DNA of 64,000 bases from Ornithinibacter sp. Its GTDB lineage: Bacteria > Actinomycetota > Actinomycetes > Actinomycetales > Dermatophilaceae. This document shows, piece by piece, positions 15,838 to 42,526 of this stretch. The notes below the pieces were generated by a model, which was not told where the DNA came from, searched no databases, and saw only the letters and a program-made list of their open reading frames with translations. The stretch is taken from NCBI GenBank assembly GCA_029266735.1, contig JAQSWG010000023.1, forward strand, positions 1 through 64,000. The letters run 5' to 3'. The first letter of the stretch is position 1. The number at the start of each line of letters is the position of its first letter. A program made the position numbers and the translations under genes.

Positions 15838-15920
15838 TGCCGGGAGCGGGACTCGAACCCGCACGCCCTTGCGGGCAGAGCATTTTGAGTGCTCCGTGTC
15901 TGCCATTCCACCACCCCGGC
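15838..15920 (-). tRNA. tRNA-Leu (anticodon CAA)
   Basis: 83 nt on the minus strand. The acceptor arm pairs GCCGGGG with TCCCGGC (one G-U), the D-arm reads GTGGAATGGCAGAC, the anticodon loop is CTCAAAA on a GAGCA/TGCTC stem giving CAA, a long variable arm (CCCGCAAGGGC region) is typical of leucine tRNA, and the T-arm is GCGGGTTCGAGTCCCGC. The 3' CCA is not encoded. The pdtaR start codon follows after one nucleotide. A TATGCT box at 15933-15938 is a likely -10 element. Confidence 0.95.
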
Positions 15921-31553: not shown

Positions 31554-31658
31554 CTCGTCATTCTGCCGTGGCGACGCGCGTCGTCTGACGGGGGGCCGAC
31601 CGCCGGACGGGCACCGCGGGACGACGCCGGTCGAGGGCCAGGAGCGCCGCGACGAGGA

Positions 31659-31682
31659 CGTCGCCCCCGGACCGGGGCGACG
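31659..31682 (-). terminator. Hairpin terminator after hisF
   Basis: A 9-bp perfect stem, CGTCGCCCC and GGGGCGACG, with a 6-nt loop begins a few bases after the hisF stop on the minus strand. There is no T-tract, as is common in actinobacteria. Confidence 0.55.
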
Positions 31683-35630: not shown

Positions 35631-36095
35631 TCAACCCCTGGTGTTCCTGCGGTGCTGCGAGACGAGACCTGCCAACCGGTGCGCCTCGGACCGGGCCACC
35701 TCGCCGTCGACCCGTTGGATGGCCATGACCGCGAGCTCCTCGGTGTCGTCGAGCTCCACGCTGGCCCACGGCGCACCGTCCGGGAACCGCACCTGGACGA
35801 TGTCGCCCCACTCCACTCGCCGGGTGACGAGGAGGTTGCGGACCGTCAGGCCGTCGTCGTCCGGCACGGCACGGATGCTCGCGTACCGCAGGAGGAAGGC
35901 CCCAATGGCTGCTCCGAACCCCACGAGGGCGAGCTGGTCGGCGAGCCGCCAGCCTCCGGCGCGTCCCATGCCCACCGCAACGGCGGCACAGACGATGAGC
36001 GCAGCCGCCGCCATGACCAGGGGCACCGCCCTGCCCCGCCGAGGGCGGAACGGCGCGAACGGGGCGACGGCCGGGAAACGGCCGGAGTCGCTCAC
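35631..36095 (-). CDS. PH-domain membrane protein (hisG-associated)
   Basis: 154 residues. Two N-terminal membrane helices ([19 protein letters not shown] and [19 protein letters not shown]) followed by a bacterial PH-like domain ([35 protein letters not shown]) and a polar tail. Homologues sit directly after hisG in many actinobacteria; function unknown. GTG 36095 overlaps the hisG stop as GTGA. Because of the upstream deletion, the hisE reading frame now runs open into this frame. Confidence 0.85.
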
Positions 36096-36893
36096 AGGCG
36101 GCACGCGGTGATGTCGGTGACGAGGATGGCCCTGGCGCCGAGGTCGTACAGCTCGTCCATGATCGCGTTGGTGGTCGACCGCGGCACCATGGCACGAACG
36201 GCGAACCACTCGGGATTCTGCAGCGGCGAGACGGTGGGTGACTCCAGGCCCGGCGTGATCGAGCAGGCGGCGTCGACGAGCGTCGCCGGGACGTCGTAGT
36301 CGAGCATCACGTAGTGCCGGGCGGTGGTGACGCCGAGGAGACGACGCCGGAGCACCTCGATGCCGGCCTTCTCCTCGCTGCCCTCTCGTCGGACCAGCAC
36401 GGCCTCGCTGCGCAGGATGGGCTCGCCGAAGACCTCGAGCCCCTGGGAGCGCAACGTCGCACCGGTCTCGACGACGTCCGCGATGACGTCCGCGACCCCG
36501 AGGGTGATGGCGGTCTCCACGGCCCCGTCCAGGCGCACGACAGCAGCGGAGACGCCGTGGTCGGCCAGGTGCTTCTCGACGAGACCGGGGTAGCTCGTCG
36601 CGACGCGGTGACCGGCCACGTCGGCGAGGGCGGACGCGGTGCCGGGGCGGGCGGCATACCGGAACGTCGAGGTCCCGAAGCCGAGACCCATGACCTCGAC
36701 GGCGGCCGAGCCGGAGTCCAGCAGCAGGTCCCGCCCGGTGACACCACAGTCCACCGTCCCCGACCCGACATAGACGGCGATGTCGCGGGGCCGGAGGTAG
36801 AAGAGCTCCACGCCGTTGTCGGCATCGACGACGATGAGCTCCTTGGGGTCCCGGCGCACGCGGTATCCCGCCTCCCGGAGCATGGCGGCCGCC
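36092..36893 (-). pseudogene. hisG: ATP phosphoribosyltransferase, N-terminus missing
   Basis: The reading frame from [11 protein letters not shown] onward is a normal long-form His[61 protein letters not shown] (PRPP-binding), and the regulatory C-terminal domain ([24 protein letters not shown]). The usual first ~16 residues (MLRVAVPNKGxLSE), an active-site strand and loop, are absent, and what precedes the intact part is the hisE reading frame. The first in-frame ATG now is at 36883. First enzyme of histidine synthesis, probably inactive if the deletion is real. Confidence 0.75.
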
Positions 36894-37139
36894 GTCGTCC
36901 GGTGAGATGTCCGCCGCCAGCATGAGCACCTGGAGGTGGTACAGCAGCTGGCTGATCTCCTCGGCGGTCCGTTCGGCGCCCTCGTGCTCGGCGGCCATCC
37001 ACACCTCGGCCGCCTCCTCGACGATCTTCTTGCCGATGGCATGCACGCCGGCGTCCAGGGCCGCCACGGTGCCCGACCCGGGGGGTCGGGTCAGGGCCTT
37101 CTCGGCCAGCTCGGCATACAGGCCGTCGAACGTCTTCAC
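36885..37139 (-). pseudogene. hisE: Phosphoribosyl-ATP pyrophosphatase, C-terminus lost
   Basis: Starts at GTG 37139: [44 protein letters not shown] and [19 protein letters not shown] are clear HisE motifs including the acidic metal ligands. After ISPDD the expected last residues (VYRHL-stop) are missing and the frame continues into out-of-frame hisG sequence. All catalytic motifs are kept, so a long fused product might still have some activity. Leaderless start: TACGCT lies 8 nt upstream. Confidence 0.72.
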
Positions 37140-37153
37140 GAGAGCCAAGCGTA
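37140..37153 (-). promoter_or_regulatory. Leaderless hisE promoter -10 box (TACGCT)
   Basis: Minus-strand TACGCT (37153-37148), 8 nt, then the GTG at 37139. A strong hairpin lies immediately upstream where the -35 would be. Confidence 0.45.
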
Positions 37154-37182
37154 CGGGGGCGAGGGGTGACCCCTCGCCCCCG
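37154..37182 (-). terminator. Hairpin terminator of pnuX
   Basis: Perfect 13-bp stem (CGGGGGCGAGGGG / CCCCTCGCCCCCG) with a TGA/TCA loop, 13 bp after the pnuX stop. No T-tract. Confidence 0.65.
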
Positions 37183-37194
37183 TCCGGCGCCGCG

Positions 37195-37959
37195 TCAGCC
37201 GACGTGGGCCGGCTCCACCTCACGCTCCGGTTCCGGGCGTTCGGTGCGGGTGACCTTGACCCACTGGGTGAAGCCGTAGATGACGAACATCCCGTAGAAG
37301 GTGTACATCACGGCGGTCGGCACGTAGCCGGTCGCGAAGCCGAGGGGCACGCCGACCAGGTCGACCCCGATCCAGGCCAGCCAGAACTCGTTCCAGCCCC
37401 GGGCCATCGCGTAGGTGGCGACGATCGAGCCCACGAAGATCCAGGCGTCGCACCAGTAGAACCACCACTGCGGCGTGTAGAACGGGTTCGGCGAGGCCTC
37501 CCAGAGGGCCACGAACACCTGGTGGACGATGACGGTGCCGACCAGCCAGCAGGCGACGACCGCGACCCGCTCACCCGGGCGCATCCAGCGCGGGACGATC
37601 GCCGGGGCGTCGCTGGCAGCCCCCATCCGGCGCCGGTGCTGCGCCCAGCGGACCCAGCCGTAGATGCTGACGACGATGAAGAAGACTTGACGGCCGGACT
37701 GGCCGTACAGCGGGATCCGCTCGTCGGCCCCGAAGGCGGCGCCGACGTAGACGAAGAACAGCATGATGTTGGCCACGATGCCGACCGGCCAGGCCCACAC
37801 GAGGCGCTTCATGCCGAGCCAGGCGGAGGCGATGCCGATCGAGACGCCGATCAGCTCGAGCCAGTGCAGCTCGTACTTGCCGATGGGGATGGTCGCGTCG
37901 ATGACCTGCTGGAAGAAGTTCTGCGACGGGTCAGTGGCCGCCGCAAGGAGGGTGTTCAT
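37195..37959 (-). CDS. pnuX: PnuC-family transporter, probably riboflavin (PnuX type)
   Basis: 254 residues with about seven membrane helices. [45 protein letters not shown] and the signature [21 protein letters not shown] are PnuC-family; the aromatic [19 protein letters not shown] and [16 protein letters not shown] helices complete the fold. An FMN riboswitch upstream points to riboflavin rather than nicotinamide riboside as substrate, as for actinobacterial PnuX. AAAGGA lies about 12 nt before ATG 37959 and is caught in a hairpin. No riboflavin synthesis genes are adjacent. Confidence 0.88.
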
Positions 37960-38003: not shown

Positions 38004-38063
38004 TCCGGGGACGTGCACCACGGGCGGGCCGGCGGTCGACAGACCTCCGGCACAACCGTCGTA

Positions 38064-38186
38064 CGTGCTGCCTACCATCCGGACTTTCACCGTCGGTCCA
38101 GGAGTTGCACCTGGTCAACCGGCCGCTGGCTGCGGTCGGGTCGCGGACTGTCACCGCCGGCTCGGAGTTTCACCGACCCCGGAGCA
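38064..38186 (-). ncRNA. FMN riboswitch (RFN element)
   Basis: The minus strand reads the canonical aptamer in order: GGTCGGTGAAACTCCGA, then GGCGGTGACAGTCCGCGA, a variable arm ending in GGTTGACC, GGACCGACGGTGAAAGTC and GGATGGTAGGCAG. These match the conserved RFN stems P2-P6 and closing P1. It senses FMN and here controls pnuX, most likely at translation through the downstream hairpin. Confidence 0.95.
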
Positions 38187-38274
38187 CGTGGGGCCAGTAT
38201 GCCGCAGGGTCACCGGCGAACGCGGTCGTACCTGCGTGGGGAGCGGAGATCCGCGTCACGACCGTGAGGCCAGC

Positions 38275-41980: not shown

Positions 41981-42526
41981 TCAGCGCCTCCCGAACGTGT
42001 CCGCGTGCGGGCTGACCCGGACGACGGGGGGCGCGCCGCGTCCCCAGTCGGTCTCCCGGACGATCCGCATGGCCTCGCGACGGTGCTCGGGGTCGAGACG
42101 GTCCACGAAGAGGATGCCGTCGAGGTGGTCGGTCTCGTGCTGGAGCGCCCGCGCGAGCCGCTGCGTGCCCTCGACGACGACCGGTTCGCCGAAGACGTCG
42201 CGACCGCGTGCGACGGTGCTGACCGCGCGGGGCGTGTCGAAGCGCATCCCCGGAAAGGAGAGGCAGCCCTCGGGTCCACACTCCAGCTCGTCCCCCAGCT
42301 CCAGGTCGGGGTTGACGAGGTGACCGACGACGTCGTCCACGCGGTAGGTGAACACCCGCAGGGCGACGCCCAGCTGGGGCGCCGCGAGTCCGGCCCCGCC
42401 CGCGTCGAGCATCGTGTCGGTGAGGTCTCGCACGAGGTGTCGCAGCTCGGCGTCGAAGTCGACCACCGGCTCGGCCGGAGTCCGCAGCACGGGGTCGCCG
42501 AAGACGCGGATGGGGCTGACGCTCAC
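41981..42526 (-). CDS. def: Peptide deformylase
   Basis: 181 residues. Three motifs in order: GAGLAAPQLG, EGCLSFPG (metal Cys) and QHETDHLDG (HExxH). Removes the formyl group from nascent proteins. GTG 42526 is 6 nt after a TAGAAT box, so transcription of the def-fmt-rsmB-rpe group can start here without a leader. Confidence 0.96.
   Translation of the reverse strand: MSVSPIRVFGDPVLRTPAEPVVDFDAELRHLVRDLTDTMLDAGGAGLAAPQLGVALRVFTYRVDDVVGHLVNPDLELGDELECGPEGCLSFPGMRFDTPRAVSTVARGRDVFGEPVVVEGTQRLARALQHETDHLDGILFVDRLDPEHRREAMRIVRETDWGRGAPPVVRVSPHADTFGRR

Follow-up and report, generated by a model that had tools for sequence, protein, structure and literature searches.

The hisE–hisG locus

The window, by which we mean the whole 64,000-nucleotide stretch of Ornithinibacter sp. 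DNA analysed here (contig JAQSWG010000023.1, positions 1 to 64,000), carries hisE and hisG next to each other on the minus strand, and the two genes meet mid-contig, about 36.9 kb into the 72,824-bp contig. An earlier note, made from the letters of this DNA, had described within 36880-36900 a hisE cut short after ISPDD and a hisG devoid of its start, the two meeting out of frame. This description was confirmed, with the join on the minus strand at 36892|36893. The features of the locus are as follows.

36893..37139, minus strand: truncated hisE, 82 residues, ending in ISPDD (PF01503, NF001610)
36892..36893, no strand assigned: blunt join, at which the 109 bp of G001:C146:20172-20280 are absent, with no microhomology
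36092..36892, minus strand: truncated hisG, residues 16-281, protein identical to that of G001, no start codon (TIGR00070)
35631..37223, minus strand: mechanical open reading frame of 530 amino acids, in which the hisE frame crosses hisG in antiphase and passes into the frame of the gene downstream

HisE reads as far as ADISPDD, after which its C-terminal residues, VYQHL, and its own stop codon are gone. The PRA-PH domain is present in the truncated protein (PF01503, 4-77/86), and the phosphoribosyl-ATP diphosphatase model NF001610 is matched above its cut-off over 7-88/93, compared with 7-93/93 in the nearest genome. HisG is without MLRIAVPNKGSLADP and its in-frame match begins at residue 16, so that the N-terminal PNKG-type first strand is missing and TIGR00070 is entered at profile position 16 instead of position 1 as in the nearest genome. 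The catalytic and C-terminal regulatory domains are retained (PF01634, 1-156/158; PF08029, 1-72/73), and just past the join there is an ATG, coding for the M of AAAM. The 530-amino-acid frame bears out a further observation of the earlier note, that the hisE frame stays open through hisG and into the next gene; we take it to result incidentally from the high GC content and the frame-breaking gap. That next gene, downstream of hisG, is a putative PH-domain gene, a label that comes from the earlier note.

Elsewhere in the window, an FMN riboswitch (RF00050, 87.9 bits) was found at 38061-38191 on the minus strand, upstream of a membrane-protein gene (about 37195-37959, minus strand) which we take to encode a PnuC/RibM-like riboflavin transporter. 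A tRNA gene was placed by Rfam at 15838-15920, also on the minus strand.

What is missing at the junction

The nearest genome, G001, is an uncultured Tetrasphaera metagenome-assembled genome (MAG; the contig concerned is CALCXF010000146.1, 4,795 bases of which recur unchanged in G001:C146), while the window's own genome is referred to as G000. Two blocks of 97-98% DNA identity flank the join, contiguous in the window and 109 bp apart in G001, so that exactly 109 bp are absent from the window and not the 60-90 bp estimated previously. In G001 these 109 bp hold the final five HisE residues and the stop codon, a spacer, and HisG residues 1-15. The frames of hisE and hisG are out of phase where they meet and the start of HisG is lost; hence no ordinary fusion protein is encoded, in contrast to the earlier suggestion of an unusual fusion.

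The remaining 266 residues of HisG are identical to those of G001, the DNA differing by 19 synonymous and 0 nonsynonymous changes, where, of single changes made at random in hisG, some 27-31% would be expected to be synonymous; the remainder of HisE likewise shows 6 synonymous and 0 nonsynonymous changes. When the 19 hisG changes were placed using three outgroups, 4 fell on the window lineage and 3 on that of G001, and 12 were ambiguous. With only 4 changes placeable on the window lineage, this record shows only that selection acted on hisG until recently, or acts still.

Rarity among relatives and the remaining histidine genes

The earlier note had proposed a comparison with close relatives. 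For HisG this was made on the best 80 of 450 confirmed loci, a set that includes G001's own contig, and all 80 related loci keep an in-frame PNKG-type start. A narrower start motif is found in 75 of these 80, the remaining five carrying variants such as AMPNKG and FAVPNKG. In the same best 80 of 450, a hisE frame ends in its own stop 50-204 bp ahead of the HisG match point in 79; in the other, L071, no upstream hisE frame was found, its hisG match lying 66 bp from the start of the contig. A 22-bp word spanning the junction occurs with zero mismatches in G000 only, one of 186 genomes of the family. The other 35 rows for this word, from 30 other genomes and taken without regard to their place, have two mismatches each. 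The junction is more than ordinary variation.

A genome search returned a single HisG match in the G000 assembly and no second hisG, and a search of the rest of the assembly for the missing 109 bp found no copy, the best match having an E value of 0.025 over 23 bp. PF01503 was found at two places in G000, namely the window hisE and a weaker match on contig C23. In a search of four other histidine families, hisD, hisB, two hisA/hisF-type genes and hisI were all present, nearly full length and free of internal stops. A long match of HisI, which had the appearance of a HisI-TrpE fusion (trpE being the name we presume for the gene in the extension), was rejected, as hisI terminates within its own frame and what extends beyond it is a second frame, overlapping and out of phase. 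As regards the Tetrasphaera literature, the available part of PMC9723799 holds nothing on this gene.

Comparable gaps elsewhere in the assembly

We compared 525,585 bases of G000 (including 5,292 N) with 1,232,304 bases of G001, of which 189,788 bp aligned at at least 90% identity. Two G000 contigs, C11 (L132) and C18 (L139), consist of N throughout. This aligned portion contained 23 breaks between alignments, together with 6 indels of at least 12 bp inside alignments. By net length the breaks comprised 9 that were one-sided, 9 that were unmatched on both sides and 5 that overlapped at repeats; among the one-sided breaks, 5 were missing from G000 and 4 from G001. The five G000 gaps are listed below.

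hisE–hisG: 109 bp, microhomology 0
GDSL hydrolase (C8; site L129:3817): 50 bp, microhomology 0
GDT1 antiporter (C4; site L125:14844): 158 bp, microhomology 1 bp
DUF3516 DEAD-box helicase (C23; site L233:2446): 53 bp, microhomology 0
Ornithine aminotransferase (C30; site L240:458): 44 bp, microhomology 1 bp

All five clean G000 gaps lie within genes and none is a multiple of three. The one-sided gaps of G001 (51, 342, 39 and 387 bp; microhomology 0-2 bp) are all four multiples of three, as are four of the five repeat-type differences (75, 75, 105, 45 and 100 bp, the 100-bp one being intergenic). Four of the six indels inside alignments (21, 21, 27 and 12 bp) are also multiples of three, while those of 14 and 20 bp are, by eye, tandem-repeat changes. 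The frame was therefore kept in 0/5 clean G000 gaps against 8/9 of the other one-sided or repeat-type breaks, with p about 0.003 in an exact test that was worked by hand on a comparison picked after the data were seen. Thus ordinary indels between these genomes keep the frame, and the clean G000 gaps do not.

The 387-bp in-frame gap of G001, opposite 42097-42483 of the window on the minus strand, falls inside def, encoding peptide deformylase, which is intact in the window; G001 has another def on its contig C58. Being in frame, the G001 gaps do not resemble an artefact of the kind seen in G000, and a general fault of such drafts is not shown by them. A broken start of pyk at about 17458 was considered and rejected, since the net 100-bp difference there is intergenic; gltD and pyk are the names that we presume for the genes near this point. 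Two further differences in the window are unmatched on both sides, with 8 bases at 31658-31667 where G001 has 621 and 56 bases at 38216-38273 where G001 has 702, and these look like differences in gene content.

In the gapped genes for which counts were made, the codons that are left still change mostly at synonymous positions, with synonymous to nonsynonymous counts of 19:0 for hisG, 10:2 for the GDSL hydrolase and 11:5 for GDT1. Clean, frame-breaking gaps in genes occur at about one per 38 kb, on the G000 side only, and the five scaled to 3.16 Mb would correspond to about 83, or some 80 freshly broken genes.

Origin of the gap

We regard a local assembly error as the probable origin of the 109-bp gap, in preference to a real deletion. 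We favour an assembly-level lesion on account of the similar blunt, frame-breaking gaps in four other genes of the part of the assembly sampled; lesions of this unselected kind make up 5 of the 23 breaks in 189,788 bp and affect unrelated genes. Blunt, repeat-free and frame-breaking gaps in genes that are otherwise under selection, and on the G000 side only, fit assembly errors better than biology, and we infer that the lesions arose during assembly and are absent from the cells. A local mis-join in the draft assembly would have skipped a short stretch, and the organism itself probably has an ordinary, separate hisE and hisG, with histidine synthesis possible. With its 161 contigs and 93.95% completeness, G000 would itself be a MAG.

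The earlier note had offered an assembly collapse at a GC hairpin, and its assembly component agrees with the reading favoured here. The hairpin component, however, found no support from folding: the intact region folds no better than its shuffles (z +0.95), and neither the joined sequence (z -0.50) nor the other lesion sites (z -0.20, -0.62, +1.52 and, for the whole GDT1 gap, +0.61) gave a supporting value. Slippage between repeats was rejected on the 0 bp of microhomology at hisE–hisG.

Some observations weigh against an artefact. The record of GDT1 is less clean, with its 5 nonsynonymous changes, and five broken genes per roughly 190 kb are, in our judgement, within reach of natural pseudogenes. 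In k-mer assembly, a blunt join usually requires that one or more reads or paths span it. Since fresh natural pseudogenes at such a density are possible, we keep a real, very recent 109-bp deletion, in the strain or in part of the population, as the less likely alternative. Such a deletion would have taken away the start of HisG together with its first beta strand and frameshifted hisE into hisG, leaving the cells unable to make phosphoribosyl-ATP and in need of external histidine; it would mean that an actinobacterium related to uncultured Tetrasphaera had become auxotrophic very recently. The position of the gap mid-contig is in line with this, as is the finding of neither a second HisG nor a copy of the 109 bp elsewhere in the assembly. 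The intact HisG of G001 aligns over 279 of the 280 residues given with 5u99 and 1nh7, which we take to be the solved HisG of M. tuberculosis. According to the part of PMC5415358 available, domain I of the M. tuberculosis enzyme takes in residues 1-90 and has beta1 in its central sheet, the catalytic core sitting between domains I and II; on this basis a HisG truncated by a real deletion would have lost part of domain I and should be inactive. Against a real deletion, however, all 19 substitutions in the remainder of hisG are synonymous, even though only 4 can be placed on the window lineage, the four other histidine families searched are all present, and similar lesions recur in unrelated genes.

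Were all of the lesions real, dozens of genes would be going at the same time in this lineage by way of blunt, repeat-free deletions, each about 40-160 bp long, and histidine synthesis would be among the functions lost, as in an organism that begins to depend on its neighbours in a rich community. We consider this improbable. A functional HisE-HisG product is very unlikely, whether it were to arise from frameshifting at the join or from a restart of HisG at the internal ATG. The hisE frame does remain open here and the ATG lies close after the join, but the two frames differ in phase, HisG has lost its first 15 residues, and in each of the 79 relatives where an upstream hisE was detected, that hisE reaches its stop ahead of the HisG match.

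The HisE–HisG gap is thus most likely not a real feature of the organism. With a local assembly error at this place, metabolic modelling based on the assembly would wrongly score the organism as a histidine auxotroph, and automatic annotation could yield a spurious protein of 530 amino acids.

Comparison with known systems

The window resembles the actinobacterial hisE–hisG pair, as seen in G001, Phycicoccus and Knoellia, in its gene order and in HisE 1-82 and HisG 16-281. It differs from this pair in being without the junction, the HisE end and the HisG start. Local errors inside MAG contigs, as described in the part of PMC7111523 available, pass on gene sequences that are incomplete or incorrect, and a lack of read support is what reveals them. 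The gap at hisE–hisG, judged here from the assembled sequence, would be alike as a short, within-contig error that leaves wrong genes behind.
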